This document shows positions 10,200 to 60,140 of a stretch of 64,000 nt of DNA, piece after piece. The position numbers and the translations under genes were made by a program. The stretch lies in the NCBI GenBank assembly GCA_019055375.1, contig JAHQIW010005076.1, positions 62,001 through 126,000 of the forward strand, given 5' to 3'. Each line of letters opens with the position of its first letter. Position 1 is the stretch's first letter. Source of the DNA: Parelaphostrongylus tenuis (Eukaryota; Nematoda; Chromadorea; Rhabditida; Metastrongylidae). The notes below the pieces were generated by a model. That model was not told where the DNA came from. It made no database searches and saw only the letters and a list, made by a program, of their open reading frames with translations.

Positions 10200-10495
10200 T
10201 AGCGATACCAGCCAAGAGTGATCTAGTGTACAACCCTGTTTGTTCAGTGATAATCTCACTTAACTTACGATGTAAAATGTTCGTCGTCACCTACTCCTAG
10301 TATAGGGGACTGAGCGCCCCAGAAGGATTGGCTAAACACGGAAGGATACCGCCCGACTGATGAGACCGTCAAGGTTGAAACACGTGTATCGGGCTCTATA
10401 AGTCAGTCCAGTATAACAGACCACATGCATGACTTCAAAAATGATTCTTCGACATATTGAAATTTGAGCATGATGTTAAGAAAACAAAAAAAAAC
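10200..10495 (+). mobile_element. Hammerhead-bearing element, family A, copy 1
   Basis: A unit of roughly 290 bases. It begins near AGCCAAGAG and ATCTAGTGTACAACCCTG, continues through GTTCAGTGATAAT and GGATTGGCTAA, has the ribozyme at 10351-10394, and ends with AACAGACCACATGC and a tail finishing about TGATGTTAAGAAA. The same internal sequence recurs at 14850-15070 and 27330-27620. Unit size and a terminal ribozyme fit an animal retrozyme monomer; that name is inference. Confidence 0.75.
10351..10394 (+). ncRNA. Type I hammerhead ribozyme, family A
   Basis: CTGATGA at 10357-10363. Helix II GACC/GGTT encloses GTCAA, with a G-U closing pair. GAAA at 10377-10380. Helix I pairs GCCCGA (10351-10356) perfectly with TCGGGC (10389-10394). 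Helix III is the palindrome ACACGTGT. The predicted cut follows GTA at 10388. All core positions are intact. Helix I sequence differs from the other family A copies yet still pairs, which is compensatory change. Confidence 0.85.
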
Positions 10496-10600
10496 GAAAG
10501 GTTATTTAACCTGATAGACTGTTTCTGTCTCATGAATCAAGAAAATGTTGACCAAACTTTTTCACTTATATCACTATATTTCGCGCAAAATTTCGATCTA

Positions 10601-11178
10601 ACAGGTCTTCTCATAAGTCTTGGCACTACAGCAGTAATAACCAATTTACTAACAAGAGGTAATCTAAATTGCTCAACAACACTATTCGAAGTATACGCCA
10701 TAAGTCTGAACACCATTTATGCCTACTCTAAAGCAACAAATCATTACCTCTTTATGCAAATTTTTTTGACCCTTCTTTTGATGCCAAGTTTGTGCCATAG
10801 TCGATGCATCATGGTCCTTTGCTTAATGGAAAGATTCAGCTAAGAACTGAAACGCTGTTCGCCTAAGCACAAATCATTGAACCTTCGCACGGTTGATGTT
10901 CACGAAGGAGGTCTGTGAATCGCGTTCCAGCTCGTTTTCGTGAAACTGCAAACGAGATGAATGCTTTGTTGAGCGGCCGTATTGGAGAGAATACAGGCAA
11001 ATTTGGTCCCATAAACTCTGATATTCTGCATAGAGCGATCTTGGACTGTTGTTAGAGAATTGACAGAAATGTGTTCAGGCCGATGGATTTGAATAGTAAA
11101 GTCAAGCATTTTTGATTAATCCTGGTTAATAAATTTGGTGTTCATTGTTTAGTGCCGAAACTAATGAGAACACCTAAT
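10601..11178 (-). mobile_element. Internally deleted mariner-like element
   Basis: The ends form an inverted repeat of about 27 bases: left AGGTCTTCTCATAAGTC and TTGGCACTA, right its near-complement TAGTGCCGAAACTAATGAGA read inward. The left third resembles the 3' end of the mariner at 32737. No intact transposase remains; ORFs here (plus 10457-10843, minus 10900-11109) are not transposase-like and probably incidental. It is best described as a mariner-derived MITE. Confidence 0.65.
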
Positions 11179-11408
11179 AAAGAAAGCTGGAGCTTTCAGT
11201 AATGTTGTGTAGATCTTGAGATGTTACATTTATGGATATGACCTGTTCCATGATACACGAGTCGCTACTGAATTGCGAATACAACTTATTTGCTCAAACA
11301 ATACTTAGAAAAGGACAAATGAAACCCTTTCGAGGGCATAAATAGTCTTTTACGTGTTGATCGCATCACTCCGAAGGGAATGTTCAGTATTTAAGTAAAT
11401 ATTTTCAG

Positions 11409-11546
11409 CTATCAGTAGAGTCAGCTCATGAAGGCAGGAAAGATCATGCAGGAGATTCATTGACAAACACTAATTCACAAGTAAATTCAGAGGAAAACGC
11501 AAATGACAGTGACTCTTTAGAAGAAGGAGAGATCCGAGAGCCTATA
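11409..11546 (+). CDS. Candidate terminal exon, acidic/polar C-terminus
   Basis: A strong acceptor ATATTTTCAG ends at 11408. The only open frame after it runs 45 codons to a TAA at 11544-11546. The peptide starts LSVESAHEGRKDHAG and is rich in Asn, Ser, Glu and Asp (NSEENANDSDSLEKE). Such disordered acidic tails are common in nuclear proteins, so it could be the last exon of the zinc-finger gene at 8049, but phase does not connect directly and at least one exon would be missing. It could also be a chance open stretch. Confidence 0.35.
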
Positions 11547-11649
11547 ATGGACGATGGATGTTCGTAAAGTCGATGAATAAGTCAAATTTTTCTTGGTATT
11601 TTTTCGCATATTTACTCTTTGTATGCCTCTTTATCTTTCATTTTGGGGT

Positions 11650-12111
11650 GAAACTTGCCTAAACTTGATATAAGATGGAGGTCTTGCTGGAACAAATTTG
11701 CTTGTTACTCATCACTAATCGCTTGTAAGGATGGTAGTGAAATGGCACGCACGATTAACATAGTTGTTTGTGGGCAGCCCGAACGGAACTGATTCTCCGT
11801 ACTGCACCTTTGAACTTCGCAAACCACTTCGCAGCCGTTCCAGTTGCAGCCGTATCAAAGCCTCAATCTCCATTAATCTTGTGCTCCGCCTCGCTAGATT
11901 TTTCCACTACTCGTCATTTGTGAACGAGTAGCAAGCAAACTTGTTCCCACTGCAGCTTTTCCCAAAGCAAGTACAGGCATGTTTTATACCAAATACCTAC
12001 ATGAATTTTCATGCGCACATAAACGATACGAATATCATGCAATTTCGATTACTCCTTATTAACAAAATTGGTGTTCATTGGTCTAGGAACAAAATTTATG
12101 GAACGACAAAA
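11650..12111. mobile_element. Mariner 5' ends in inverted arrangement
   Basis: The minus-strand part (about 11750-12111) has the terminal sequence GTCGTTCCATAAATTTT at its right end and, further in, decayed transposase including AAKWFAKFK, a typical mariner N-terminal stretch. The plus-strand part (about 11650-11750) repeats the transposase start (ATGGAGGTCTTGCTGG, then AACAAATTTGCTTG), so two 5' pieces face each other. Both match the copy at 29329-29601. All are dead. Confidence 0.7.
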
Positions 12112-12143
12112 TACGGCGTAACATAATGTTTAAAACTTATTCG

Positions 12144-12186
12144 TATATATATATATATATATCTACATATATATATATATATCTAC

Positions 12187-12236
<50 letters not shown>
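12144..12236. repeat. (TA)n microsatellite with short interruptions
   Basis: Alternating TA, interrupted by CTACATA units, directly right of the mariner remnants. It shows as Tyr/Ile-rich frames on both strands, which are artefacts. Confidence 0.95.
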
Positions 12237-12239
<3 letters not shown>

Positions 12240-12240
<1 letters not shown>

Positions 12241-14559: not shown

Positions 14560-14618
14560 ACGCTCAAATTTCAACATGCCTGACAACTATTTTCGAGCCC
14601 TATATGTGGTCTGTCGTG

Positions 14619-14679
14619 GGCACTTATACAGTGCAATGCACGTGTTTCGGCCTTGCAGCTTCGTCAGTTGCACGGTGCC
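14619..14679 (-). ncRNA. Hammerhead ribozyme, family A, left arm
   Basis: On the minus strand: outer helix GGCAC (14675-14679) with GTGCC (14619-14623). Inner helix I GTGCAA (14668-14673) with TTGCAC (14631-14636), perfect. CTGACGA at 14661-14667. Helix II region AGCTGCAAGGCC is partly degraded. GAAA is intact. Helix III is palindromic. The base that should be U just before the cleavage nucleotide is C (14638), so this copy is probably inactive. Confidence 0.75.
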
Positions 14680-14982
14680 TTGTCGTTTAAGCAATTCCCC
14701 GGAGTTTACTCCTTAGAGCAAATGACGGCGATGTACTGTACAAGCATGCATAACAGACCACATCTACAGCTCAGGATTGATTATCACGTATATAGAAATG
14801 TGCGCAAGGTCTTAAGAAATTCCCGATATGAAATATAAGATATTCACGTTTATCAGCCAGGAGCAATCGAGTGTACAACCCTGCTCGTTCAGTACTTTTA
14901 CCACTTATACCACGGAGCGTGTAAAACGTTTCTCCTATTTGATGTGTTGATTCACGAGCAAGTGACTGAGTAGAAAGATACG

Positions 14983-15025
14983 GTGCAATTGACAAGGCTT
15001 CAAGGCCAAAACACGTGCTTTGCAG
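14983..15025 (+). ncRNA. Hammerhead ribozyme, family A, right arm (decayed)
   Basis: GTGCAA (14983-14988) pairs with TTGCA (15020-15024). The core has changed to TTGACAA. Helix II GGCTTCAAGGCC can still fold. GAAA has become AAAA. The C-for-U change at 15018 matches the left arm. The copy is recognisable but inactive. Confidence 0.65.
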
Positions 15026-15339
15026 TTTACAAGTGCTCATAATAAACTACATGCATGGCTCAAAAATCTTTCCTTTTTACAGCACATCTCTACTGTACAC
15101 TTATGTTCGTTAAAGTCGTCCATTTCAAAATTGTGTACGGACAGGTTGCGTATCATTAGCACAGGATTTTTACAAGTAAAAATTGATTGTGCTTACTACT
15201 CTCATTTAAAAAAAACGACTGGAATATTTAGGCGAAGTGATAATTTCATAACTTGAACCTAATATAAATTTTTTACATAAACTGCCAGCACAATGGTTAG
15301 GAAATCGGCTTTCATCTCTTATGCTAAATCCTTCATTTG

Positions 15340-15555
15340 ATCGACTGCTTTTTTAAACCTCGTTATAAACATTCAATATGGTCTGTGAGAATGACTAAAG
15401 CCCTACGAAGGTTTTTAGATCAGGGCCATACGTGTTGCAGAGGTATCGCCCCCTCATCAGTGGCCCACGCCCCAGACTTGGCTCTACTTCATAGGAGGGA
15501 TGCAGAGATGTATGTGGTTATAGCACAAAATACAATGACACATTTCCAGTCTATG
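15340..15555 (-). mobile_element. Hammerhead-bearing element, family B, copy 2
   Basis: Minus-strand copy with the family B hairpin/spacer region at about 15500-15550 (reverse strand GTGTCATTGTATTTTG, CATCTCTGCATCCC), the ribozyme at 15423-15466 and a tail leftwards containing CATTCAATATGG and AACCTCGTTATAAA. The same tail begins the next copy at 15590. Confidence 0.7.
15423..15466 (-). ncRNA. Hammerhead ribozyme, family B, copy 2
   Basis: On the minus strand: helix I GGGCCA (15461-15466) pairs perfectly with TGGCCC (15423-15428). CTGATGA at 15454-15460. Helix II GGGGG/CCTCT pairs with wobbles around CGATA. GAAA has become GCAA, so activity is doubtful. Compared with the copy at 7905, the helix I change GGGTCA to GGGCCA keeps the pairing. 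Confidence 0.7.
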
Positions 15556-15589
15556 GATTGTGGTTGGTAGATACAAACTAACCCATTTC

Positions 15590-15890
15590 ATCTACTCTTT
15601 TCAAACCTCGCTATTAACATTCAATATTGTTTCTAAGAATGCTTAAAGTTTAACCGACGTAGTTACGTCAGAGCCATAGGCGTTTCGGAGGTATCGCCAA
15701 AAAATTATCGATAAAAAGTGGTGAAAGCTCAATGTCATTGTACGAAATGCTATCACCACAAACATCTCCCAAATCCTGCTACAAAGTATGGTTTAGTGTA
15801 GAGCGTGAGCCACTGAGAAAGGAGGCGACGCATACGGCTTTGACGAAAGAATTTCGGTAAGGCTTTAAGCATTCTTACAGGCTATATCGA
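15590..15890. mobile_element. Family B element, head-to-head inverted pair, decayed ribozymes
   Basis: Perfect terminal inverted repeat AAGAATGCTTAAAG (about 15636) and CTTTAAGCATTCTT (about 15863). The left arm keeps minus-strand GGCGATACCTCC, GAAAC and TATGGCTCTGACG but lacks CTGATGA. The right arm keeps GAGCCA followed by CTGAGAA and GGAGGCGAC. The central hairpin AGTGGTGAAAGC / GCTATCACCAC is retained. The outward orientation of both ribozyme remnants matches the family A pairs. Confidence 0.65.
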
Positions 15891-16670
15891 ACTATTGCAG
15901 CTTCGTCTATCAATCTGAATGACAAAACGATATAATACTATGGAATCACCGCCCCATTTGAAATAATGCTAAGACTCCTTCCCAAAAACTCAACTGAAGG
16001 CAAATGTGTCAAAAGAATTTTACTTCTCCTCAAAAAAGATGCTACTATTGGCAGATACCTACAGCAGGTTAAAATTCTAGCAGTTCTCTCAAAAGAGTAG
16101 AATCGAGCTAGCCGAAAAACTTACCGACTGCTAAGTTCCTATTAGTTTTCCTAATTCCTAAATTGTGTGGAGGTGGAGGAGGCTATGACTGAATGGCTGG
16201 TGATGTGCGGCGTGCCTTGACTTAGAATAGATCCCACAGCTTAGAGAGCCGGCAATCAATAACGAACGTCATACGTCAATACTGTTCATCTCGGTATTGT
16301 AAGGCGATGTATTCGACCAGTAATCCACAAAATACATGATAAAGACAAATCAATACGAATAAAGAATTTTTGAATTATAACATTTTTACCTATCAAGCAT
16401 TAAATTTCTTTATCCAAATATAGCATCATTACAGCTTTTGCCACTGGTCATGTGCACTAATTGAAGCTTAATACTTATTTGTTAGAGAACTTATTACGGA
16501 GGTTTTTTCAGAAACCGTTGAATGTAGTCTAGCAATCTATTAAAAAAATCCTTTTCTGCAAAAGACAAGAGAATCATGAGATTATTCTACGGAATGCCAC
16601 TACATTTCACGAAAACTGTACAGATAGGTTTTGAGACAGCTGAGCATTCATTCTTCTAAAAATCTCTCTC
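15891..16670. other. Non-coding stretch
   Basis: AT-rich sequence without an ORF above 60 codons that I can support and without the window's repeat families. It ends in a short (CT)n run at about 16663-16679 next to a SINE. Confidence 0.45.
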
Positions 16671-25700: not shown

Positions 25701-27299
25701 ATAAGCATAAAGATGGCGTTTTTCTCTCTCTCTGACACTTCTGCCCAGCTCATCTTTGAGTTACGAATCGATTTTCATCAACAGTTTTTCAGATGGCAAG
25801 CTTTTCGTCTACTCCGTTGCATGTTTCACACAGAGAACATTGCGGTATCGGTGATCATAGCCGTGGTGAGCCTTAGGTTTTTTTGAAACCTATAAAAGTC
25901 GCAGTTCCTTTAGAGATTTTGCTTGTATAGGTAATATTTAGGATAAGTTTACGCATGCTTTACTATGAGCCTCTAGTGTAAGGTCATTTGATCAGAAATG
26001 GTACATTTATTTTTATTGGTATGACTCCAGCGCACTCCATTGCTTTTGAATCTGAAATAAAATGATTCGTATTTTGACAGTTCCAGCGGATGAAGATTCC
26101 AGGTTGAAAAAGGGTTACTGATTTCTATATTCTCAAAAAAAATGAGACTCGGTTATGATATAGTACAGGTGACAGCGCTACTAAATGCACACGTAGTGTT
26201 AGTTTCAGAAAAATGCCGCATATTTGAATGATCCTACATCAACATGACTCGTAACAAGGCGCTACTTTGCCGACAATGAATAAGTTGGAGAAACGATGTT
26301 TTGAATCTCGATTACTCAACCGTAATAATAAGATCTGACATTCCAGCAGCACTTTTTCAAGTTTCTCGACAGCTTCTGTGGGAAGAAATGCTTTAGGAAC
26401 CAAGCCTAGGAAGAAATCTCCCCCAAAGAGTTTTTACCTGTCAATGCAGTTTTAAGCTTCCGTAATACATAGACTTTTCAACTAATTGAAAAAGTGCTTA
26501 ACTTCTGAAAGATCTCATTTTGGATAATGAATTTTATTATTCTAAGCTGTCGTGCAATCCTAAGATGTAGGTTGAAATTACTTACTGACTTACGAACAAC
26601 CTGAATGTTGGGTCGCATTGCTTGCTAATTTTGAATTTCAGGTTGGAATATTTGGTTTGGTCTCGAACGGCGCTGCTATTTTAGCCGTGCGATATAATCC
26701 GCTCTTAAGGAACTCATTTGTCCTATTGTGTTTCTCACACAGCGTCGCCAATATGGGTGCCTTGTGCTTCTATGTCTTCTGGATCGCCCCAATTACATTA
26801 CTGTAAATATTCACGGTTTTTGGTTGTCAGAATTTTGAGCTACGTAGATATAATATGGGGAACCAAGACGCTTAGTCACTAGATTTCTGTCAGGGTAACA
26901 GTGAAACTAATTATCAATAGTTAGTAACTGGAATAACTTGCAAAGTATTTGATTGCAGAAGAGGCCTAATAATAGGCTTGATATGCTATCGAGTGTTATA
27001 ATTGTATGTTTCAGCCCCATTCACTTAATTACTTTTCCCCAGAAGCTTTGATAATTTAAAAAGGCCTTGAAACTTTCGTAGTTTCAAGAAAGTATAATAT
27101 CTTGTTTAAATAACGTTACCTATAAACAAACTCAAGATAAATTTTCGTCCCGTTGCTGCGATAATGAAAAACTAAAATGTCGAGCTAGATTTCGTCGTGA
27201 AACCGACTACTGTAGTAACGTGTCGGAAGTTGTATTATACAATATAACATCTCTCGTAATATTAATTGAGCCATCGTGCCATGTGGTGTGTTAATGGGC

Positions 27300-27620
27300 T
27301 GACTAATGGAACGCGATACATGTGTTTCGACTTTGACGGTCTACCATCCAAGAGCAATCGAATGTACAACACTGTGTGTTCAGCGATAATTTCACTTGAC
27401 ATACAGTTTGAAATGTTCGTCATCGCCTTCGTAGTATAGGGAACTGAGCCCCCCGAGAGGATTGGCTAAGGACGAAAAGTACTACTGGAGTGATGAGACA
27501 GTCAAGGTCGAAACACGTGAATCGCGTTATAAAAATCAGCCCATTTAACAGGCCACATGACATGTTGGTTCAAATAATAATTGCAAGATATGTTAAAATT
27601 TGAACGTGATCTTAAGAAAG
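27300..27620. mobile_element. Family A hammerhead element in srx copy A intron 2
   Basis: The right half has a plus-strand ribozyme remnant (27480-27540): TGATGA with the first core C changed to G, helix II GAC/GTC, GAAACACGTG intact. The left half has an antisense remnant with GAAACACATGTATCGCG but no CTGATGA. Between them are GAGCAATCGAATGTACAACA and GAGAGGATTGGCTAAG, typical of the family. An inverted pair with decayed ribozymes. Confidence 0.7.
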
Positions 27621-29328
27621 CACTCGAAACAATAGGTACAATATTGCATCATCAATTCTTCAGAAGTACTAAGGACTTGCTTGAAAGCAAATCTCGGAGC
27701 TCTTTGCAAATAAAGAGGAACCTATAAAAGTATGGTGAAAAATATTAAGGAATAATCGACCTTATCTGGCTGGAATCATTTTTTTACAGAATTTTTCCGT
27801 TGAATAGCTATTTCATAACTTTTCAAAGGAGGAATACGGATTGTACGCTGCGTGGAGGAAAGATGCGACTTAGTTCTCACAAATAAACAAAAACTATAGA
27901 GATTTCGATTGTTAGAATAGGAAATTTATTTTTCAGCGAAAGCGAATTATCGACCGAATTGATAGGAAAAATATCCAGCATGGTACTAAACATGTTCTAC
28001 ATTGTGTGCATTTACTCTCACCTCGTTATTACCATGAATAGACTCATCGCCATCACGCTTCCTCTACGAATTCCTAGCTTACTGAGCGTAAGAAACACCT
28101 CGCTCGTAGTTTTGATCTGCTGGATATTGGGATTCCTCCATACGATACCGTATTATTGGAGTGAGTCCTGTTATTTGTAACCAATAAGTTGATGATGTTT
28201 GTAAGTACGAGGATCAGCAGCAATAGCAGTCAAAAGCACACGTATTGGACTTTATTCGGATTTCCTTGTAGAATAAAAGAAAAATGTCGAAAAGACTCTT
28301 CTTTATCAGCCAGTTTAAAATGGATTTGATTGCGACCCAGATTAACTGTAAAAATTCACTTAAAATCTACTTTTCTAGACCAGTCAATATTAGCCCTCTT
28401 TACCACTGCGGGAAAGTTTGACGGCACTGCAATCTCAAAAGAAAAGAATAAGTTAGTTAATTCTTAGTGCAACTAAAAGCCATCTGAGTCATTTGAGAGG
28501 CTTTCGAAAACTGCACTGAACAAGCTCTTTCCTTTGTCTCTGACGTGAGAAATTTCACTTTAGCATCTACTAGTGAAATTTTCACGAAAATCAAATTGAT
28601 TGCATGCAACCACGGTGTACCACAATCAAATTTATCGAGCATAAATCTTCAGTGATTCAATTTTAATTATGGCGTGATATACCTTCTCTACTATTTTTGA
28701 TAAATTTCTTTTCACATTATTTATCTGCTTTTTTTTCAGCGGAGAGTTGTTTTGTAGTCTTTGATACGATAAGATGGGGGTGGACGTTCTCCTATACCAC
28801 TTGCGATCATATCATTGCTATCTCCATTAACTTCTATATCGCCGTAGTCGGAATGATCTCCATTTTTCTACTCGACTGCACAACGTTGATCTGTTTAAGA
28901 TTTAAGCGCAAGGTTAGTCCCATTTAATTCGACCATGACTTCCTGTATTATTTGTGCCCAGCCACTGGTCGAGTGATTCAAGCGAGGCAGTCGAAGTGAT
29001 GATCTTCACTTGGCCTGATCATGTGCATGGATGGCCCATTGAGTTTCAATTGGTCAAATCATATACTAGTCATCATGTCCCCTTTCCAAATTCATCGTGA
29101 AACGCTGTAAGTATCAAGTAGGTATTGAATCTACGCTGCTCTTGGCATTATGATATTCGAGACGACGTATATTCAAAAAGATGAGTGAATTCTAGAGGCC
29201 TATATCGCTGAGAAAAACTCTTTGCTCGGACTCTCACCAATTTTTCGAAAGCTTGAATCTCAGTGAAATCAAAAATGTATTCAATTCTTGAGAAGCTTTT
29301 TTATTGCGTTGTAGCAGTAAGAATAATA

Positions 29329-33239: not shown

Positions 33240-33640
33240 TATATTTCGAGCCTTTCATGGGGTCTGTCATAGCACTTATGCATTGCTAACAAGCGTTTTC
33301 GGTATTTCAGCCTCATCAGTGGCACAGTGCCTTTCGGTTCAGTCAATTCCATGCAGGGGTATAGACCTGCTATATATAAAAGAATGAACGCTCAAAAACA
33401 TATCACCGGATGACAGTTGATTCGTTTTACCACCCATGAGAGATAGAATGTTGTATGCTACAATGTTGGAAGATCTTATCATTTCATGCGGTGGATTGTT
33501 ATCCGGTGTCGGTTCCTTTACATTTAGGGTATATCCCCTTATTAAAGAACTGTCTGAACCGTAAGGCACCGCGCTACTGATGAGATTTATGACAATGCCA
33601 AAACACGTGTCTAGCGCTTCATTAGTGCCATAGTAAGCCT
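33240..33640. mobile_element. Hammerhead element, family A, head-to-head inverted pair
   Basis: The left arm has a minus-strand ribozyme remnant (33268-33330: GTGCCA, CTGATGA, GGCTGAAATACC, GAAAAC). The right arm has a plus-strand ribozyme (33565-33629). Each ribozyme is preceded by GAACTG / TGAACCG and GGCAC. Sequence between the arms differs from other pairs. Confidence 0.7.
33565..33629 (+). ncRNA. Type I hammerhead ribozyme, family A, GTC site
   Basis: Outer helix GGCAC (33565-33569) pairs with GTGCC (33625-33629). Inner helix I GCGCTA (33571-33576) pairs perfectly with TAGCGC (33612-33617). CTGATGA at 33577-33583. Helix III is palindromic ACACGTGT and is followed by C, giving the classic GTC cleavage site at 33611. 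Helix II has decayed and GAAA reads AAAA, so the copy is probably inactive, but helix I shows clear compensatory change against the copies at 10351 and 14668. Confidence 0.8.
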
Positions 33641-33804
33641 AAATGAAGCCATTGAAAGAGGTCAATATAAACAGTCCTCCAACCTCGCAGCATGGCCACC
33701 CAAGCCGCAAAGGTGTTCGACGTTTCAACCCGGAAAACCCAGATAAGATTAAACCGCATCAGAAAATACCGACGTCCTGGTTGCTACTAATAACAAGGTG
33801 GTAA

Positions 33805-42400: not shown

Positions 42401-45400
42401 TTTGGTCGCACAGCAAAAAGTTCAGTTTTGAAACACTCACCATTTAGATATTTCAGGTTTTCCAATTATTACTGGAGACCAGCCTCCTAGACTCAGTACA
42501 TAGGTGAGGTTGTGGCTGACTTAGGTTGGGAAGATTAGCTTGAGGTATGGTCCAAGGTCACGCGTTATTACGAAGCGCTCCTTTTTGCGGTTCATTTTTG
42601 TGCCTTTACAATGCGTCGAAAAGACCTCCAAAGTTTTAGGCGCTAATGTTTTTAATTCCTGTGCGAAGACCGTGAAATCAACGTCGATATCTGCTTTCTT
42701 ATGGTTTTGTTCCCTTACCTGATTAGTGAAGTTTTTGGGTCGGCGCTATGCTTCCCGGCTACGTGCTCTCTTACACGGATACAGAGTGGTCTATATAATT
42801 CGCCAATACATTCATTCATCTGCGCATGCCTCGCATTCGCAAGAGATTAGGTGACTTGTGCCAAATCTCATGCAGTCGACGTCTCTAGCGTTTGGGCAAA
42901 TTTGGCAGTTTTTCACTTCGCAGAAATGGTTATACAGTCGATTGCGGAGTATTTGTGCTTTAGTGTATTTGGTGGTACCTCAACTGCTGCTACCGAATTA
43001 TCTAAACCTGCTCTTTTTTGGGAACGTTCAATAGCTGAACTAGCTTCTTTGAAAAAAAAGCAGGATGAATGGAACCTTGCTCTAGCCAGACTTTCTGTTT
43101 AGAGGAGGGGGGGGGGGGGCGATTTTTCTTCAAATCTAACCTGAGTAGCTCCTACAGTATCATAGGCATTAGAGATAACAATTTTTCTCATCAAGCTCAG
43201 GGATTCCACCTTATTTCCATTTCCTGTGCACACATTTATAGCAGTTCGAGACATGTTTTTCACAAGTTCGCGTTTATGCGTGACGTAACAGAAGATGTGT
43301 AATGAATCAAGATGTTTTTGTTGCTTGGTTTGCTATACCATTTTGTGATATAGGAGTTCTCGGATAGGTTGACGAACGTTTATAAAAAAAACCAATTTGC
43401 TTTCTGTTTCTCACGGCTAATTTTATGTACTCTGACTGACTATTTATCAATTCAAAACATTTATTCGTACACTCCCGCCTTGATCAAACGACAAAGTTTT
43501 TGTTGCTAAGTTTGAATTCTTTGGTGTCAATCATCATTGGCTTACCATAAAGTAAAGGCCGGATATCGATTCCTGGGGCCTCCAGTCTAAAGGCCATAGC
43601 AGTCATAAAGGCCATAGCAAGGTTTCGCGCTAGTCGTTGTCCCATTGTCACCCCTCTGATCTGTACGAAATAATTCCCAGATCATCTGAAGAATGAGCAG
43701 CTTAGGCACTCTTCTAAGAGAGCCATAACCTGCCGAATGGAGAAGCCATACATGTTCGTGGTTCTTTCGTGCTCCGTTAGAAGCTCGCAGATGGTTTGCA
43801 TTGCGGACCCAATCGATACGTTTCTATAAAGAGTGATCACGTCGAAAGCTCCATTACATACGCATTGTTGGGAAACGCGTTACGCCGACGCTTTAGGAAC
43901 ATTTAGGTATTTGTGAGATGGATTGGAATGTGTTTCAGTAGTCGGACTTGTAATAAGTTTTCGAATCACGTTAAGCTGTCTGTTGATCCGTCTACACAGC
44001 TGATGATGAGCCTAACTTTGGACTTTGATGGATTAGTAGACGCAAGATTATTAGTTATACCAACTTATGAGTTCTGATAAGTAAGTGCAAGACGGGATAT
44101 GATGAAGGACCAAGCTTTAATCGAGAAATAACGGAAGGCATTGAATCGGCTGAGTTTGCTATTTTACCCATTCTTCTCTCAAGTTTCGATTTTGTTTGGA
44201 ATTCCGTGTCAGATGACGAACGACAGAGTGTGGTGCTCTCAAGATGTTTCTCGTTATCCAACTGAGAAGGAATTACTACGAACTCTTCTCCCTTATCACT
44301 ATCTCATAGTCTAATGGTTTTGAATTTCAGTAGCTCTCGTATCTGTCACACGCCGTTTTTCTGCGCTAATGTTAGGTTGGAAGTAGACTTTTTGCGCGAT
44401 AGTGGTTAAGGATTCTAAGAGTTTTGTTCGAAAATATGCGAAATTTAGCACATACCTTGGTAATAGGATTTTGTTGCCTGAAGAACGCTCGAGAAGAAGG
44501 CGGTGTTGGTATTACCCTGTATTTTGCTGTTCATGCCGTTGGATGATCCTAGTCCGAATTTATAGCGGAGGCGATCTTCAAGTTCCTGCAAATTGCGTGC
44601 GATTCTACCCAGGGTTTCCTTAGAAATGGGCTGCGCTGATGAAAAACGTGAGCCTATATTCCAAGAGCGAACGCGCATTATCGGGGAGAGTCATGCATCC
44701 TGAGACGGTGATTCTTGATTTATTTGACACATTATTAATATTAGGGTAACTCTTAGAGCTTTCAGACTTAATAAGGGTGGCATGCTATGTTATGAAGTGG
44801 TAGAATTCTATTTTACAGCGCCATTGCAACTAATTGCTCTTCTATAAAAGCTTTAATCCACTGAGAGAGCTCTGGAACGTTCTAGTATGGGAAACTGTGA
44901 AATTTTGCTACAATTGAATTATGTTATGGACAAAGTCTGGATGAATATTTGTTTCGATCCCGAGGTAGTGAAAATTTAAAAATTTCGATCCTTGTCGTGC
45001 TAGTGAAACCAACTTCTATAGCAACGTGAAGTTGTAAATTATACAGTAATACATTATTGTTTCTTCAAAGTCACTCACGACTCAACTGGAAACTCAAAGC
45101 AACTCTCGAGACTCTTTGCAAATCTAGAGAATCTTCAAGGCAGGGTGATCAGCAATAGGAAATAATTAGCTTCATTTGGGTGAAATTATTTTGAGAGATT
45201 TTTTTCACTGTGTTAAAATGTCAAACTTTACTGCTTTCAGTGGAGGCGATTTAACGACCAAATTGATAGGAAAATTATTCAGCATGACGAATATCATGCT
45301 CTATAACGTGTGCATCTATTCTCATCTCGCTATAGCCTTGAACAGACTCGTCGCCATCACACTTCCTCTACGAGTTCCCAGCATACTGACCTTGAGAAAC

Positions 45401-47412
45401 ACCTCCTTCGTTGTTTTGATCTGCTGGATAATTGGGTACTTCCATACAGTACCGTATTATTGGAGTGAGCTTTGTTATCTCGTAGTTGATGAGATTGGTG
45501 ATGTTCGAAAGTATGAAGATCAGCAAAGATAACGGTCAAAAGCATACAAAATGAGCTTCACTGAGAATTTCTTGAAAGATTGAAGTGGAGAAATATTGCG
45601 ACGTCTGTTCATTAGTCATCAGAAAATAGATTCAATTTTGACTTAGATAAGCATGTACGAATATTTTTTTGAATCGACTTTTGAAGCTCTCACCACATTA
45701 GAGCTCTTTTTCTTACATAAAAGTTTAACGGCAGTTGTTATCTCAGGAGAGAAACAGTTAAATTGCTCTTAGCTCAGGCAAAACCCAGTTAAGTCAGTTA
45801 GAAAGTTTCCAAAAGCTTTGCTAGACTTATTTATCGACTTCCTTTCAGCAGACAGTTGCTATGTATTCTTTGATACGATAAAGTGGGCATGGACGGTCTC
45901 TTGCAAGACGTGCGGTTACGGTCATATTATTGCTATCTCCATCGACTTCTACATAACTCTTGTCGTAATGATCTCGATTTTTCTACTCGACTGCGCAACG
46001 TTGATTTGTTTGAGAGTTAAACGCAAGGTTAGTCACAAATAAGTTGACCATGATTCTCTGCACCATCTGGAGCTCTTTCTTCAAGTCAGGCATGAGTTAA
46101 CGCTCCAAATTTTTCTCATCTGGCGCATCTGGCACCGTAATTAGAGCTGCTCTGCGTCGCGCGCAAGGTCGATGCCTTGACCTCTCACTCATGATTCACC
46201 AAGCTTTCCATCCCTCTGAGGTCGGTAGAACTGGTGCCAGACGTATCTGAGAGGATGCGGAGCACTGATTTGAGAAACCTGTAGGAAAGAAATTGTAAAG
46301 ACCAGATATGAATTTAATCACCTTAAACGAAACTTAAAATTCAAGACGAATGCATGGCGAATCCCTCAGAAATCGATCAACGCCGAGAACTTTATTCTTT
46401 CACCCTTCTCAGAATCAGATTTTTCTTGAAATTTTGATGGAATAAGAATTTTTCGTGTGCGGAAAAGCAGATTCTGTCTGAAGAGAAGGTTGGTGAAAAA
46501 AAGCTAGTGTTTCAATCTGATAAAGTTTCATGATTCCAATGATATGTCCACAAATACCGCTCAGCGAAAAAGGCAACAGATGGAAGTACGTTTCTTCAAG
46601 CAGGTAGGCTCCTAAGTAACAGTCGAGTGGCTCAAGAATTTTCTAAGTTTTCTTATGTTTATTGCAGACGGTGTACCAGAATGCAATACTTATTTATTTA
46701 CAAATTAGTGTTTACTATATTGCTCGGCAAGTCTCGAACAAATGGGCAGTTTTCTTGAATGAAACATTTGCATCGGAAATGTATTATGGTCTAGATGGGT
46801 AAGTGCATAAAGAGCTCAAATCAAAAGACCGCTTTAGACCTTTTTCATGGGTAATTTTGATAAAAGACTTGTTTCATAATCTTATAGGGATTTCTATTAT
46901 TAGAAAAAATTGGGAACATTCAGGTAGAAACAGTTGAAAAGACGAATGCAAAATTTCTCGTATTTAAGCAGTTATTTCCAACTGTTAAACGAGCTGATGA
47001 AGTTTTTGATTTCCTAGCCATTTTCATCCACTCCGAGAAAGTTTGATGCGCGACTTTTCACATTAGTGGTGGTTACATGAAGAAAAGAACGTGATCCATC
47101 AATAAAGCTGATATCACAGCACTATTTGTTTCAAAAGGTAGGAATTAGCTCAAAGATTTTGTCTCAAATAGCGCGTCGCCGCAAAGAGAAGGATGAGATA
47201 TTTAAAGATTCCATGAGAATAAATCCTTTGTACCACTTCATTGATTGTTTCGGTGAATGACGAAAATGTTCTGTGGTCTAGATATACAAAACTCTTTAAT
47301 TTTTAGCCTCATTATTGTTCTGTTTCACTTTCTACCCTCTCAAATCGGTGCCAAAACGACACCTACAACACAGCAGACGGTGGGTAGCCGCATCGTTTCT
47401 TCCAAGGACTAA
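39452..47412 (+). CDS. srx-type seven-transmembrane chemoreceptor, copy B (apparently intact)
   Basis: Seven exons join without a stop into 316 codons: 39452-39523, 41320-41480, 45241-45464, 45849-46027, 46526-46603, 46668-46798, 47307-47412. All introns are GT-AG. TTTTTTCAG touches the ATG, which suits spliced-leader trans-splicing. Members of this family are odour or taste receptors in ciliated neurons. Visible membrane segments in order: AVSLIMAV-IGLFGLVSNG; FGLMCLSQSVANMSV; MTNIMLYNVCIYSHLAIAL, then NRLVAITLPLR; FVVLICWIIGYFHTVPYYW; IIAISIDFYITLVVMISIF; the FFKQ motif followed by AILIYLQISVYYI; and DGLIIVLFHF, a typical srx ending of the last helix. Cys in TDSCYVFF could serve the extracellular disulphide. 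Intron 2 (3.8 kb) holds an SA SINE pair and a Penelope element; intron 4 holds an SC SINE. Exon lengths equal copy A except exons 4 and 5. Confidence 0.85.
40493..40972 (+). other. Unrecognised 159-codon ORF in srx copy B intron 1
   Basis: A long open frame (MLLGTLLKVMLKLLI...) lies inside about 1 kb of sequence that copy A's intron 1 lacks, so it arrived or was kept only here. An 82-codon frame on the opposite strand (40462-40710, with GEIKRATFLLLVGITKQSA) overlaps it and looks at least as protein-like. I recognise neither. It may be part of an unlisted mobile element. Confidence 0.25.
41540..42125. repeat. SINE family SA, head-to-head inverted pair in srx intron 2
   Basis: The left copy is antisense: tRNA-like part at about 41565-41632, body with ACAGGTTTGGTCGGATATGC. 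The right copy is sense: body AGCGATATCGCATACACGAC, tRNA-like part at about 41968-42040 with GGTGTAGTGGTAACACGCG and GTGTTCGACTCCC. They meet near 41765-41855, both tRNA-like heads pointing outward. Its tail TAACACTTCGAAAAATGCAG equals that at 5450. Confidence 0.8.
42285..44800 (-). mobile_element. Penelope-like element, nearly complete but broken
   Basis: Minus strand. N-terminal region at 44445-44678 (GSRFSSAQPISKETLGRIA). RT pieces: PVLHLLIRTHK region (about 44070), FDVITLYRNVS (about 43840), QIRGVTMGQRLA (about 43640), a degenerate active-site region near 43560, then CFELINSQSEYIKLA (about 43460) and AINVCTG. GIY-YIG region: CIGELYRPLCIRVREHVAGK (about 42800), ending with KTLEVFSTHCKG and KMNRKKERFVITRDLGPY in pieces. 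Frames shift repeatedly and the YxDD box appears lost (reads like YGKPMMID), so it is dead. It sits in intron 2 of srx copy B, opposite to the gene's direction. Confidence 0.8.
43107..43119. repeat. Run of 13 G
   Basis: An uninterrupted homopolymer GGGGGGGGGGGGG in otherwise AT-rich sequence, within the PLE. Long G tracts can form quadruplexes and are mutation-prone in nematodes. Confidence 0.95.
46140..46400 (+). repeat. SINE family SC, diverged, in srx copy B intron 4
   Basis: A tRNA-like head (GCTCTGCGTCGCGCGCAAGG, TCGATGCCTTGACC) followed by CCATCCCTCTGAGGTCGG, GTGCCAGACGTATCTGAGAG, GTAAAGACCAGATATGAA and GATCAACGCCGAGAAC. The A box is degraded. Confidence 0.75.
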
Positions 47413-48943: not shown

Positions 48944-51900
48944 CCTGTATCACCTGCCGTCCCGTTGGTCGTCGAGTGACTCGAGCGGGTACCAGCAACT
49001 CTTCCATTTTTCCCTATCGCGTGCAAGAGTAGCCCAGTGGGTCCTCCTTGCTCTAGGAATTCGCTGAGCATCAAATTTTTCTTCTATTGCTTTCGTGTAG
49101 AAATCGGACCAACGGGTCAGTGGTCTTCCTTTAGAGTGCCTGACGTCCCAAGGAATCTTGTCGGTAACGGCTCTCGCCCATCAGTTGTCGTTGAAGCGCA
49201 TCACGTTTCCGGCCCACCTTATTTTCGATATTCCGACGTGTAGAATGGTGTCTCTGATTTTCGATCGTTGACGTAGGTCGGAACTTCGCATCCTTTCTCT
49301 CATTTGCGAGATACGGGATACTCCAAGCATCAAACTTTCGACTGCGCGTTTAATGATGCCAAGTAAACTTTAATCCTGCTTACGTAGCGACCAGGTTTCT
49401 GCTGCATACGTTAGGGCAGGGATAATTGCCGAGTCGAAGAGGTGGGCACGGAGTCACATGTTCTTTGTCCTCTTCACTACATCTTCGATGCTCCAAAACG
49501 TTTTCCAAGTCGCTCGTTTCCTAATGCTTAATTCTGGAGCTAGGTCACTTATCATGTTGATTTCAGAACCTAGGTAGACGTAGCTGGAGCATTCGGAGAT
49601 TGTCGCTCCGTTGAGCGTGAAAGGGGCATTAGAAACCTATCCGTTCCTCATGAACATTGTTTTTGTTATAGTCAGTTGTAGACCAATCTTTCCATAGGCG
49701 TTATCGAAATCGGTCAACATTCGTTCCGCTTGGCTGATGTTTGGTGTTATGAGAACGATATCGTCAGCGAAGAGAAGATGGTTTAATTGTCGACTGTCAA
49801 TTTCCACTCCCATTTCGTCCCATTCTAATGTTCGCATGACGCTTTGTAGGGTGGCAGTGAATAGTTTTGGCGAATTGTATCGCCTTGTCGAACCCCTCTT
49901 CTTACGTCAGTGGTGAAATTGTTGTAGAATGGGGATATTTTGGCCGTAAAATCTTTATAAAACTCACGAAGTATTATTATGTACTGGTTAGGGACGCCCT
50001 GATTATCCAGAACATCTATAACCGCTTCTGTTTCCTCTGAATCAAAGGCTTTCTTCAGATCGATGAAAGTGAGACAGAGCGGTTGTTTGTACTCTCGTGA
50101 AACTTCAGTGAGTCTTGTATTCATGTGAATGTGGTCTATGATACTGAATCCTTTTCGCAACCCTGCTTGTTCGCATGGCTGTCCTTCGTCCAGTGTTCTG
50201 TCAATCTTGTTTAGGATGACTCGAGTAAAGAGTTCATAGACAACGGACAGCAAGCAGATTGGGCGATAATCTCCTATGTCGTAAAGGTCTCCCTTTTTGA
50301 ACAACAATACAGTCTTGCTGGCTTTCCATTAAATAGAGGCCTTGCGTTCTGACAGGTAGCGAGTGAAGAGCCGAGCCAGGGTGTTGATGAGAATTGGCGC
50401 CAGATTCTACAGGTGTTATGGTCTAATCCTGTCTGGACCGGGTGTTGTACTGTTTTTACCGACGATATAGCATGTCGGATTTCGGGAGGGAGGACCGGTG
50501 GAGCGACATATTCGTCCCCTTCCAATTTATATGACGGTAAGAGGACATGGCTAGCGAAGAGATCCAATTAGTATTGGTGGATGGTTATCTCCATAGCCCT
50601 TTTCGAAGCTGTAAGTGTCCCGTCAGGGTATCGGAGTGCAATCATCTATGTCTTATAGTTGGAGAAGCCTCACTGGGCTTTCGAATGCTCTTCCCAGCTT
50701 CTGCAGCTTCTGTCATAACTGCTGCTCTTTTCTCTTTGAGGTCTTCTTTTATCGCTTCTCTGCATCGTTTCGCAAGTTCGGACGTAAGGTTTCGGTTGCC
50801 TGCAGTTCGTGCAATTCCACGTTGACGTATCAGCTCGAGTGTCTGCGGAGACATGCGTCTCTTTGTGACCTTAGGACTCTCGGCTTTTATAGCGCTAACG
50901 TTAAGATATTCAACGAGTCGATCGTATTTTTCGTCGATGTTGTCGACAACGGTATCTTCCCAAGAGCCGACTAATGATTTGAATACATCCCAATTTATGG
51001 TAGTTGCGGGACTTCGGTGTTTGAATTTAGCGGCTTTCTCTCCTCTCCTCGAAAATCGGAACGTTGGGCGAAGGAGGCGGTGGTCTGATCCCGTGTAAAA
51101 CTTGGGAACAACAGCGACGTCGGTCAAGCAAAACCCTCGATTTACTATGTTGTGATCTGCTTCGTTATGGTACTCACCATTGGGAGACTCCCACGTTCAT
51201 CGCTGAGAAAGAGGTTTTGGGAATCACGATTTACCATGGATGGTTTGGGTCGTCATGATAAACTCACATAGCCTCTCACCCTGTTCATTCCATTCTAGTC
51301 CGTGGGTCCCTATGTGACGCTCTTCAGACGTTCTTCTAGGTCCAATTTTTGCGTTAAAATTTCCGACAATGACCTTGAAGAATGTATGATCTTCTCTGAA
51401 GAATTTTTCGAGTTCCATATAGAGCGCTTCGACTTCGTCTTCGTCATAGCTTGATGTTGGTGCGTAAGCAACGAAGATGGTCAAAGCCGGCATAGAACCA
51501 CATCGCTTCAACCGTAATCGTCCAATACGGGTTGTTAGTCGTTCAAACGAATCAATGCTCACAGTCAACTTCGATTTGACGAGGACGCCAACGCCACCGA
51601 CACCTCTGCGATCGCATGTTCCAAGGAACAGTTCTTCTCCGGTGTCATAGACAGCGTGAAAAGGATGGCGCCTTCTCGTCTCAGCCAGGCCAATGACGTC
51701 GTACCTTATTCTTCTTGCTTGAATAAATAGATCTTCTACAGCGGATTCGTGAGCAAGGGTTCTTGCGTTGTAGGTACAGATCGTCATTTTAGTCCGTTTC
51801 GATCTTGGCAGCCTAGTTCGGCCCTGAGATTTTAGCAGCTGATTGCAGGTTTTTGGCCGACTTGACTCGTAAAAATAGAGTTTTTGTCAAGTCGGCGCTG

Positions 51901-54767: not shown

Positions 54768-54890
54768 GACATATTGAGCCTTTCTCAGTCTGCCTGTTAT
54801 GGCACTTATAAGATGTTAGAAACGTGTTCGGCCTTCAGCGTCATAAATAGCACGATACCTTCAATTTGAGCTTTTTACTCGTAAGAGGAT
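54768..54890 (-). mobile_element. Family A hammerhead remnant
   Basis: Minus strand: GGTATCGTGCTA, TTTATGA (from CTGATGA), CGCTGAAGGCCGAACACG, then TTTCTAACATCTTATAAGTG and GCC. The outer-helix partner and the CTTATAAGTGCC tail are conserved; the core is decayed. Confidence 0.6.
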
Positions 54891-55194: not shown

Positions 55195-55330
55195 GGACCG
55201 CAGTGGTGTAGTGGTAGCGCGCGTACCTGGTAAGAGATATACCATCTATGAATAGAGGAATTGACGGCGATGTTACATTGCGCACACAAAGTGGAAATTC
55301 AATTCACACTGCAGAGATAACTCATCACTG
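55195..55330 (+). repeat. tRNA-like fragment, SA type
   Basis: ACCGCAGTGGTGTAGTGGTA followed by GCGCGCGTACC is an A-box region like that at 5632. The B box is too diverged to call (TTCAATTCACACTGCAG near 55300). It abuts the SC SINE. Confidence 0.5.
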
Positions 55331-55459
55331 CTTGTCTACTGATAGGATCACCCGATAGTGTAGCGACCAACAGTCATTGGTAATGGGTGGTAAATTGAAT
55401 AACACCTTTATATTCTACTGCTTTTCAAGATCCAGCTGAAAACAATATAACCTGGTCAT

Positions 55460-55565
55460 GTAATTTGACCCTTCCATGAAGTGTGTTGTGATACTTGCTA
55501 GACACATATTTTTTTGGCTTTTCGGCCTTATCAACAGTACGGTGCCTTTCGTTATAAACTGTGTT
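55460..55565 (-). mobile_element. Family A hammerhead remnant
   Basis: Minus strand: GGCACCGTACTG, TTGATAA, GGCCGAAAAGCC, then ATGTGTCTAGCAAG. The GTC site and helix starts are readable but the GAAA box is displaced. Inactive. Confidence 0.55.
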
Positions 55566-56179
55566 ATCAGATTATATAATTTTAAATGAGGTCTTGACAA
55601 ACAGTTGGATATAACACTATTCAATTTACCACACGTTAGCAATCAATCGTTAATTACTGCAGTGTCGCTTGATCTTATCACTGGACATGTAATGATTTGT
55701 TATCTCTGCAGCGTTAAGTGATTTATCTCACTTTATGCACGTAGCGTAACATACTAGTCGTCGATTCCTTCATTTGAAGGGCGGAGGGGGAGGTCTCTTG
55801 AAATTAGTCGATGTAATTTTGTTTGCTACGGTGTTGTGCATTTTTCTCATCTCACACAGGAAAAACATTGGGATTACATCATTACTACTGCTAACGAAGG
55901 AATATGGATATAGTGCATTGTCGTCTACTGAGATGTGATTAAAGCTTTTTATGTGTGATTACTGAGCTTACAAGTATATTCAAAGATTTATAGTTGAGGA
56001 CTAAATGCTTGTGCAACTGCAAAGTCTATTCAAAGGTGAATTATTAGTATGGTGTCGCGGCTACGCAAAAATTTTGGTTTTTTTCTGCATCCTAGTATTT
56101 TCATAGGAAGTCATTGGCGACATTTGTGTAAAACTCGCAACGAGCAACTCTGAACATTTCTTGTGAAATAATGTAACCT
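55566..56179. other. Non-coding stretch
   Basis: Nothing recognised. Confidence 0.4.
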
Positions 56180-57869: not shown

Positions 57870-57965
57870 ATCTACAAAATTGGATGTCGAAAGAGATCAA
57901 AACCCGTATTTCACCTTTTCTAGGAACACGTGCTAACCATATTGCATCACCGACGCTCCGTTCTG
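57870..57965 (-). repeat. SINE family SD, degenerate
   Basis: GAGATCAAAACCCGTATTTC, CTAGGAACACGTGCTAACC and GCATCACCGACGCTCCG follow the antisense SD pattern of 48400-48460. Confidence 0.6.
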
Positions 57966-58038
57966 TTACCAATTTTTTTTTTGAAAATTGTATGCAACAA
58001 ACCGTCAACTTTGCCTTTTTGACCGATATCGACATCAT

Positions 58039-58039
<1 letters not shown>

Positions 58040-58077
<38 letters not shown>
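58040..58077. repeat. (TA)n tract left of SINE
   Basis: Pure TA alternation directly abutting the tRNA-like head of the SC SINE. Confidence 0.95.
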
Positions 58078-58079
<2 letters not shown>

Positions 58080-58379
58080 AGCGCATGTGGTGCAGTGGTT
58101 AGAGATGCCCTGCGTCGCACACGAGGTCAATGGTTCGATCTCGCGCTCATGGCCCACCAAGCCATCCATCCCTCCGGGGCCGGTAAATTGGTACCAGACA
58201 GGTCTCAGACTTGTCTGGGAGGATAAGCAGCACTGACTCGGTTCAGCGGGAGGCCACCGCGGGTCATTGTAAAGACCAGATATGCATTCAATCACCTCAA
58301 ACGAAGTTAAAAATTGAAGTCGAATGCATGGCGCATCCCTCAGGGATTGATCAACGCCGAGAGCTTTATCCTTTATCCT

Positions 58380-58380
<1 letters not shown>
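58078..58380 (+). repeat. SINE family SC, best copy
   Basis: tRNA-like head: GAGCGCATGTGGTGCAGTGG, TTAGAGATGCCC (A box region), GGTTCGATCTC (B box), GCGCTC closing the acceptor. Body: CATCCATCCCTCCGGGG, CCAGACAGGTCTCAGAC, CAGCACTGACTCGGTTCAGC, GGCCACCGCGGGTCATTG, AGACCAGATATGCATTCAAT, ATCCCTCAGGGATTGATCAA. It ends CTTTATCCTTTATCC followed by (TA)n. About 300 bases with pol III-type promoter boxes. Confidence 0.9.

Positions 58381-58381
<1 letters not shown>

Positions 58382-58423
<42 letters not shown>
58382..58423. repeat. (TA)n tract right of SINE
   Basis: TA alternation at the 3' end of the SC SINE, with one TTTATATAT interruption. Confidence 0.95.
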
Positions 58424-58480
58424 CGCTAGAAAAGCGTTAAAAAGGTCTAGAAATCTAACTGATCATGCATAAATCTATTA

Positions 58481-58960
58481 GGTTGGAAAGAAAGTTCATT
58501 TGATAAAACATTCAAAATCTATACATATATTCAGACAACAAGCAACAACAACCATTCTTCAAAACACAGACCATCATCATCCAGCACTTTTTGTCATCGA
58601 TCCACCAGGTTTCGGATCTCATTCAAGTACACTCCTTTGGCTTTAATCAAAGAACTGTTGACATGATTCTTCAACTTCATCGAAAGATTCAAATCGGCGA
58701 CTTCCCAAAAAGGTGTTGCATTGATCGGAAAAGGCCGTGATCAGATGGAGCAAAGTGCGGACTATAGGGTGGATGCGGTAGAATCTCAGCTTCGCCCAAA
58801 TCCTCAAACTTTGCCTTGGTATTTTCGGCTGTGTGTGATTTTGTATTGTTTTGCTGAAACAAAGCTCGTTTTCGACGAAATCTGTACTCGTAAAGCATCA
58901 ACAAACATTTTGATCCCTGGACACTTCCATTGTGCAGCAGATATAGGCAGATTGTATATC
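58481..58960 (-). mobile_element. Mariner 3' end, transposase fragment
   Basis: The left end TTAGGTTGGAAAGAAAGTTC follows TA, the classic mariner terminal repeat and target. The minus frame 58689-58904 reads FRRKRALFQQNNTKSHTAEN (site equivalent to QDNARPH), LGEAEILPHPPYSPHFAPSD (where the catalytic Asp of the final D motif is present) and LFRSMQHLFGKS. Further pieces (FESFDEVEESCQQFF) follow with shifts. The 5' half is missing. It is a different subfamily from the copies at 10601-33185. Confidence 0.85.
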
Positions 58961-59169
58961 AATAGATGTGCAAGAAATAGATTTTGCAAATGATGTGAAA
59001 ATCACACACGATTCATGCGAAAAAACGACATTCGCCTCCAGACGATAGAAATTTTCTTCACAACCCAATACCACCGTGACTGAGCTCAATACCGATATCG
59101 GCTTGGCAGGCCAAACCATTAATGGTTATTTGCTGACAGATCGATACAATTCTTTCAAAGAAGAGCGGG

Positions 59170-59262
59170 AAAAAATGGAGCGCCGGTGGCGTAATGGTTA
59201 AGCACGAGTCCTCGGGAAGGGTCAAGTGGTGGTTTGAATCCCAAGCGACGTTCGAAATTCTG
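59170..59262 (+). repeat. tRNA-like repeat, isolated
   Basis: GCCGGTGGCGTAATGGTTAA (A box), then GGTTTGAATCC (B box), followed by GACGTTCGAAATTCTGCACA similar to the SD tail. Probably an SD relative. Confidence 0.6.
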
Positions 59263-59994
59263 CACATCATTTAACGGGATTGTGGATAAATCCTATCAGT
59301 AATCGTTCGTAGTCTTTCCAATTACTTCTCTGAAAATGTTCGCTATATACTGTAAGTGTTTCATTCAAGAGACGTGATGTAATTTTGGTTTTGTCATTGA
59401 GAAAAGATACATATCACGAATCTTTTCCCATCTTCCGCAACGTTTTCCACAGCCGTCGCCTTTTCACCCTCTAGAACTTCCATTTATTGCTGTTCTGCAG
59501 CGTTTATTTTTGGCTCATGTGATTTCTCATTAGTCTGATAGCTCAAGCATTTTTAAATATAGACGCCTCCTGGTGACAATCAAACTTTCAGCTTTCATAA
59601 CGAGTCTGACGGTTTTGAAAAATCGTTCTCTGACTGGCAGTTGATCTTCTTTTCTCGAAAAAATAATTCATGCGCTGGAAACAAAAACCTTCGATTTACC
59701 TTTATGTGGTCTAAATTATTATAGTACTCAACAATGGGAAACTTCCAAGTTTGGAATTGCAAGTGGGCATAAAGAATTTTTTAGCTACCAGGAGTGATCG
59801 TTGTCGACGTGATAAATTCAAACAACAGCTAACTCTGTAAGGCCCATTCCACTTAGTAAGCCCGTTATGATATGCTTCAAAAATTCCTTCGAGTGCAATT
59901 CTCACCAAAAGTTTGTGCTAATGTTTCAACACCTTCAATCGACTATTTTGGGACCTCGCTTGATATTAATACATCCTGACAGCATATTTTAACC
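59263..59994. other. Non-coding stretch
   Basis: Nothing recognised; the minus ORF at 59711-59908 is anonymous. Confidence 0.4.
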
Positions 59995-60140
59995 CCTTCA
60001 TGATACCTGTAAAGGCATTTATAAGTCGCTGGACACGTGTTTCGGCCTTGCGGCCTCATCAGTGGTACGATGCTTTTGTTTCAGTCAGTTCCTGGTGAGG
60101 GAATACACCCCCTACATACGAAGGAGTCGACATCGAGTTA
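59995..60140 (-). mobile_element. Family A hammerhead element, half copy
   Basis: The minus strand carries the ribozyme at 60013-60073, preceded by GAACTGACTGAAACAAAAGC as in the copy at 33330, and followed by AAATGCCTTTACAGG. The opposite arm was not found. Confidence 0.7.
60013..60073 (-). ncRNA. Hammerhead ribozyme, family A, textbook core
   Basis: On the minus strand CTGATGA (60056-60062), helix II GGCC GCAA GGCC with a GNRA tetraloop (60044-60055), GAAA (60040-60043), palindromic helix III ACACGTGT and C, giving a GTC site. This is the consensus hammerhead core base for base. Inner helix I is poor (CGTACCA against CAGCGAC), while the outer GCAT/ATGC pairs, so cleavage may be weak despite the perfect core. 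Confidence 0.8.

Follow-up and report, generated by a model that had tools for sequence, protein, structure and literature searches.

Do the sequence differences among copies of a dispersed repeat record selection on its RNA while the repeat was spreading? We address this question for a 64,000-nucleotide stretch of the nematode Parelaphostrongylus tenuis (contig JAHQIW010005076.1, positions 62,001 to 126,000; hereafter the window, numbered from its first letter), which holds a repeated hammerhead ribozyme motif that we call family A. An initial annotation of the window had pointed to three different inner helix I duplexes, each fully paired around the same core, and had argued that such changes reflect selection on RNA structure while the family was mobile. 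We find that selection on the RNA fold during spread is supported by covariation given the structure, by whole-genome counts at one base pair of helix I and by the conserved core. We also consider it likely that family A spread in this strongylid nematode by way of self-cleaving RNA, as a non-autonomous, retrozyme-like element with a unit of ~315 bp.

A type I hammerhead at high copy number

All three reported duplexes are found in place, each flanking a CTGANGA...AAACACGTG core. GCCCGA (10351-10356) lies opposite TCGGGC (10389-10394) and GCGCTA (33571-33576) opposite TAGCGC (33612-33617), both on the plus strand, and GTGCAA/TTGCAC (14668-14673 with 14631-14636) is a minus-strand reading. The outer duplex GGCAC/GTGCC does pair in two copies, those at 14668 and 33571. 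A profile search of the window recovered 10 family A copies or part copies (Table 1), three of them with an exact CTGANGA...GAAACACGTG core (10357, 14667 and 60062). Across the P. tenuis assembly (481.5 Mb, 5105 contigs) exact hammerhead cores number 12,752 (6399 + 6353 by strand), against 2 (1 + 1) for the reversed pattern. As only three of the 10 window copies carry the exact core, we infer that the family likely has tens of thousands of copies in the genome.

On the strength of its sequence and its Rfam matches the motif is a type I hammerhead, for which self-cleavage is predicted. Among six genomic loci scanned, RF00163 (Hammerhead_1) was matched at 34.9 bits once in locus L038 and twice in L039, which places these copies above the gathering score of 34 for type I membership; three loci gave lower scores (L082 31.6, L041 31.2 and L070 27.7 bits), and L020 gave a weak type III match. 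A scan of the whole window returned no hammerhead at E<=1, and a local search of 151 bp recovered the 10351 copy at 25.8 bits (E 1.3e-4), below gathering and spanning exactly 10351-10394. Helix III is short and palindromic (ACAC/GUGU).

Core conservation was assessed in 38 copies only, from a 200 kb tile of contig C2 and the window. The nine core positions are non-consensus in 5.8% of cases on average, against 28.7% over 133 other columns, in a set whose profile was built partly from exact-core copies and whose contig was chosen for its many matches. Eleven of the 38 combine the CUGANGA/GAA core, A15.1-U16.1, H17, an open helix I and the helices.

Covariation in the helices

The genome-wide check of covariation proposed in the initial annotation was run on 78 distinct copies, reduced from 106 profile matches and each covering 52 or more of the 59 ribozyme columns. 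It did not refute the proposal: it favoured helix I when the structure was given, and failed to single it out when all pairs of columns were compared. The copies come from the C2 tile (27), the window (8) and loci fetched by the exact-core pattern (43), so the sample leans towards intact cores. Our null, from an R-scape-like procedure of our own, preserves the tree and the column rates and was applied to 17 structure pairs; an earlier parsimony null, which allows changes on any branch and is thus generous to the claim, is not relied on.

Given the structure, two of 11 helix I pairs covary, the outer pair -9/45 (E 0.005) and the inner pair -2/32, which is base pair 1.2 (E 0.027), as does one of four helix II pairs (8/17, E 0). 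Three further helix I pairs reach p 0.0056-0.0095 yet have E>0.05, and the remaining six carry no clear signal. The register matters: p<0.01 is reached by 6 of the 17 structure pairs, whereas sliding the pairing by -3, -2, -1, +1, +2 and +3 gives 0, 0, 0, 1, 0 and 0. Among the 78 copies the alternative pair types are G-C (45), A-T (13) and T-A (3) at base pair 1.2, C-G (53) and T-A (13) at 1.5, and C-G (45) and G-C (10) at 1.4.

A pair counter was also applied to an alignment, A1, of 65 of the 78 copies; one copy was lost at the tile border and 12 were dropped by eye as near duplicates or for a gapped helix I, window copy 54802 among them. Here 87.6% of cells are paired against 75.0% after shuffling, and 126 cells are changed on both sides against 45, values that none of 500 shuffles reached for either measure; the number of pairs showing such two-sided change (12) was reached in 52 of 500 shuffles. 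Additionally, the 5' strand fully pairs with its own 3' strand, G-U allowed, in 38 of 73 gap-free copies, as compared with 29% when it is set against the 3' strands of other copies and 8% (224 of 2797) between copies whose 5' strands differ at >=2 of five places.

Matched changes across the whole genome

At base pair 1.2, with the exact core, the matched combinations GTGCA/TGCAC (A-T) and GTGCT/AGCAC (T-A) occur 254 and 88 times genome-wide, and the mismatched GTGCA/AGCAC (A-A) and GTGCT/TGCAC (T-T) 12 and 15 times, an odds ratio of 124 (Fisher p about 4e-55) in a table whose cells are copies and not independent events. The form GCCCG/CGGGC is present 5116 times with the exact core. Within the GCCC background, a 5' A at base pair 1.2 faces C in 76 copies, T in 15, A in 4 and G in 2 (97 copies among the matches listed, of 264); uncompensated decay is therefore the commoner fate of single copies. 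At base pair 1.5 in the GNGCT background the counts (T-A 88, C-A 5, T-G 5, C-G 1) are too few for support. The proposition that selection acted on the RNA structure while the family was mobile is supported by the given-structure covariation, the base pair 1.2 table and the conserved core.

Direct, permuted and inverted copies

Family A copies occur in direct, permuted and inverted arrangements. Among 100 places listed, neighbours within 600 bp comprise five direct pairs, all spaced 314-337 bp, 12 head-to-head pairs whose spacing ranges from 88 to 502, and two pairs set tail to tail; neighbours within 450 bp in the tile and window are -+ 11, ++ 3, -- 1 and +- 1. Among the matches listed, contigs C54, C57 and C1767 carry three ribozymes in a row, about 320 bp apart, as expected if a multi-unit RNA had been copied whole. 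The window copy at 10357 is permuted, comprising 1.3 units with a period of 314 and a tail segment on either side (Table 1). Locus L020 likewise holds a permuted copy of 1.3 units, which starts in the ribozyme core and is bordered on either side by the 13-letter flank repeat TATCTACACTCCT. In L039 the copy forms a 94.6% palindrome between two occurrences of the 11-letter flank repeat AATCTATTTTA, and L034 holds a unit that begins at the tail. Flank repeats of at least 8 bp border 11 of 36 clusters, against 4.3% in mismatched flanks, and the clusters measure 177-1068 bp. This combination of direct, permuted and inverted copies fits reverse transcription of unit-length or multi-unit, probably circular, RNA together with fold-back of the complementary DNA (cDNA).

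One repeat bears an element copy at 27251-27636, and the relative of this repeat at 44796-45229 seems to be without the element, with a possible 13-bp imperfect duplication; the empty-site comparison (27251-27636 against 44990-45110) is suggestive only. A tRNA-Ser-like gene lies about 110 bp upstream of the ribozyme copy in L038 (L038:1313-1384), with related pieces in L028. An apparent overlap of nearly every ribozyme with another on the opposite strand was rejected as an artefact: the search pattern allowed two mismatches in each half and was matching the palindrome.

Table 1. Family A copies, copy pairs and tail segments in the window
Feature	Positions	Strand	Remarks
3' tail segment preceding ribozyme	10110..10192	+	10110-10183 against 10424-10500, 71% match
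Type I hammerhead, intact by sequence criteria	10351..10394	+	Helix I GCCCGA/TCGGGC; Rfam RF00163 25.8 bits
3' tail segment behind ribozyme	10413..10500	+	
Head-to-head inverted pair	14589..15067	.	Self-inverse alignment
Hammerhead copy	14618..14679	-	Helix I GTGCAA/TTGCAC, outer GGCAC/GTGCC; A-C at 15.1/16.1 and helix II base
Decayed partner arm	14976..15036	+	Helix I GTGCAA/TTGCAG; three core changes
Partial partner arm belonging to 27477	27237..27342	-	
Decayed hammerhead copy	27477..27538	+	
Head-to-head inverted pair	33240..33669	.	Self-inverse alignment
Hammerhead copy	33272..33332	-	Helix I GTGCCA/TAGCAA (4/6 paired); changed helix III
Hammerhead copy	33565..33629	+	Helix I GCGCTA/TAGCGC, outer GGCAC/GTGCC; G12->A, helix II 2/4 paired
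Decayed hammerhead copy	54802..54860	-	Three core changes
Decayed hammerhead copy	55423..55554	-	Within palindrome 55251-55774
Hammerhead copy	60015..60075	-	Core intact, perfect GGCC/GGCC helix II, helix I just 2/6 paired

Other features of the window

A second hammerhead family, B, with the palindrome ACACCGGTGT, occupies 7897-7960 (+) and 15372-15891. On reading, the copy at 7911, with helix I GGGTCA/TGGCCC, seems intact, and its relatives are GGGCCA/TGGCCC (15457, -) and about GAGCCA/CGGCTT (about 15835, +), inside an inverted-repeat element. At 20341 (-) there is a hammerhead-like core, CTGACGA...GAAAC, with helix I GGCT/AGCC; in a BLAST search its surroundings had no match to family A or B sites. 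A pattern scan of IMG/VR matched 19 stretches of viral contigs.

RTE-type retrotransposon copies at 49162-51839, 60900-63888, 142-1028 and 34092-34788 are mutual inverted repeats and carry open reading frames (ORFs) for reverse transcriptase and endonuclease; one of these ORFs, a reverse transcriptase at 62721-63923, matches three P. tenuis proteins at 99% identity across 68-82% of its length, and a fourth at 88%. Pieces of Srx-type chemoreceptor genes (Pfam PF10328) lie at 41065-41484 and 45170-45532.

Discussion

We propose that transcripts longer than one unit would cleave themselves, either alone or as dimers joined through the helix III palindrome, and that the ~315 bp unit RNA would then be circularised. 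Reverse transcriptase supplied in trans, for which the RTE retrotransposon is a possible source, would copy the unit and insert the cDNA, and fold-back of that cDNA would yield the head-to-head inverted pairs. In lineages that go on spreading, helix mutations would mostly survive if compensated, because only RNAs that cut themselves would be copied again, and single copies would lose their pairing after insertion.

Several observations weigh against this account or qualify it. Two of the three duplexes that raised the question sit in copies that are probably catalytically dead, judging by their letters: the 14668 copy because of the A-C at 15.1/16.1, and the 33571 copy because it has lost G12, which we take to be the general base of the hammerhead, along with half of helix II. 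The duplex of the 33571 copy, GCGCT/AGCGC, occurs only once genome-wide with the exact core, and its single-step neighbours GCGCT/AGCAC and GTGCT/AGCGC five times each; this example is therefore not an established exact-core lineage. Its pairing could be due to chance transitions in a dead copy; when change was simulated at assumed rates close to the divergence between the 33571 arms, 1.3% of runs ended with helix pairing complete and one or more pairs compensated. Covariation is absent from the inner pairs 1.1, 1.3 and 1.6 and from the outer pairs -7/43 and -8/44 and is weak at -10/46, and in the all-pairs test (58 copies) helix II pair 8/17 is the only one to pass. An intact core brings no better pairing of helix I: 4.83 of 6 pairs in the 24 copies that have one, 5.00 in the 14 whose core is broken. 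Minimum-energy folding does not yield a hammerhead for the 10351 or the 14668 copy; for the 33571 copy it recovers helix I, inner and outer, and for L038 helices I and II. None of five folded copies clearly beats its shuffles (z -0.30 to -1.60), nor does the circular fold of the window unit (z -0.4), and the circular folds of two other units reach z -5.0. Additionally, one direct pair among the matches listed is spaced 508 bp, 25 of the 36 clusters are without a flank repeat of at least 8 bp, and some of the repeats at the other 11 are simple sequence.

The covariation might instead mirror shared descent, if a few old subfamilies happened to differ in their paired helix I and no selection was involved. 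Double changes do mostly seem to separate subfamilies, one parsimony reconstruction of the six inner helix I pairs finds just 8 double canonical changes, and 4 double non-canonical ones, that fall within a single branch, and helix I does not stand out in the all-pairs test, which preserves the tree. However, every subfamily founder would have needed matched double changes too, the structure pairs exceed the same kind of tree null and the slid pairs do not (6 of 17 against 0-1), and base pair 1.2, -9/45 and helix II 8/17 each have three matched pair types, so that we regard descent without selection as unlikely. Template switching in hairpin DNA or cDNA, which would restore pairing in one step without selection on RNA, draws on the fold-back copies, since these suggest that the cDNA may form hairpins, and on the GCCCG and GTGCA lineages, which differ at 1.2 and also at two neighbouring pairs, 1.4 and 1.5. 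However, isolated pairs have been restored elsewhere (for example GTGCAA against GTGCTA), every one of the 65 rows of A1 keeps an asymmetric internal loop between the inner and outer helix, with six letters 3' and none 5', and the core is conserved as well; we hold this explanation to be very unlikely.

The prevalence of head-to-head neighbours (11 of 16 in the tile and window, 12 of 19 among the 100 places listed) would also suit a foldback or miniature inverted-repeat transposable element (MITE), a DNA transposon whose long inverted repeats happen to hold a hammerhead sequence. A MITE should have fixed ends and length, whereas here the ends differ among single and permuted direct copies, inverted spacing varies where direct spacing is near constant, and neither fixed ends of the MITE kind nor a fixed terminal inverted repeat or length was seen (spacing 88-502, clusters 177-1068 bp). 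Such an origin appears highly improbable. It is similarly doubtful, in our estimate, that the fold-back copies are themselves the propagating form, with a hammerhead on each strand and transcripts of both polarities cutting and circularising in a viroid-like manner within an animal genome. Spread of a unit through self-cleaving RNA and reverse transcription remains the reading that we prefer.

Type I hammerheads are familiar from repeats of parasitic worms, namely the Schistosoma W-elements and Sm-alpha; in description family A shares that class and setting, although Schistosoma is a flatworm and not a nematode. Minimal hammerheads of Penelope-like elements were reportedly described by Cervera and de la Pena in 2014. 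A Penelope-like element would be recognised by reverse transcriptase with GIY-YIG and a hammerhead in its pseudo-long terminal repeat (pLTR); in the four of 21 listed window ORFs that were scanned for domains, only RVT_1, Exo_endo_phos and Srx/7tm were found. As described in PMC11167929, the hammerheads of those elements resemble family A in the short palindromic helix III, the possible cleavage as dimers and the link to reverse transcription, whereas the family A unit is far shorter, is non-coding as judged by reading and has an outer helix I with an internal loop.

The closest resemblance is to the animal non-LTR (long terminal repeat) retrozymes (Cervera and de la Pena 2020, PMC7229834). 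These share with family A the type I hammerhead, repeats of ~170-400 bp in tandem and monomeric copies, target duplications >4 bp, a weak helix III in some cases and the lack of an LTR (for family A, judged by reading); the family A unit falls within ~170-400 nt, with tandem and permuted copies and target duplications >4 bp. Circular RNA has been demonstrated for the retrozymes, whereas for family A it is a prediction. According to the same source, newt and axolotl satellite hammerheads have a palindromic tetraloop at helix III, as family A does, and a need for dimers has been proposed for them; family A differs in its dispersed copies, some with target duplications, and in its inverted pairs. 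The word "inverted" is absent from the main text of PMC7229834, and "nematode" from the main texts of PMC7229834, PMC7761336, PMC6155905, PMC3088659 and PMC11167929. A literature search, conducted mostly at the level of titles and the starts of abstracts and with subscription papers largely outside it, returned no nematode report of such elements. Family A resembles known animal type I retrozymes, and what is unusual is the frequency of head-to-head fold-back copies and the nematode host.

These findings add a strongylid nematode, with a very high copy number, to the hosts of hammerhead retrozyme-like elements. With thousands of copies in one genome, the family also provides a case in which to measure the selection that acted on ribozyme activity during retrotransposition, and its mixture of direct copies at unit spacing and fold-back copies at variable spacing offers a legible trace of how the cDNA arose.

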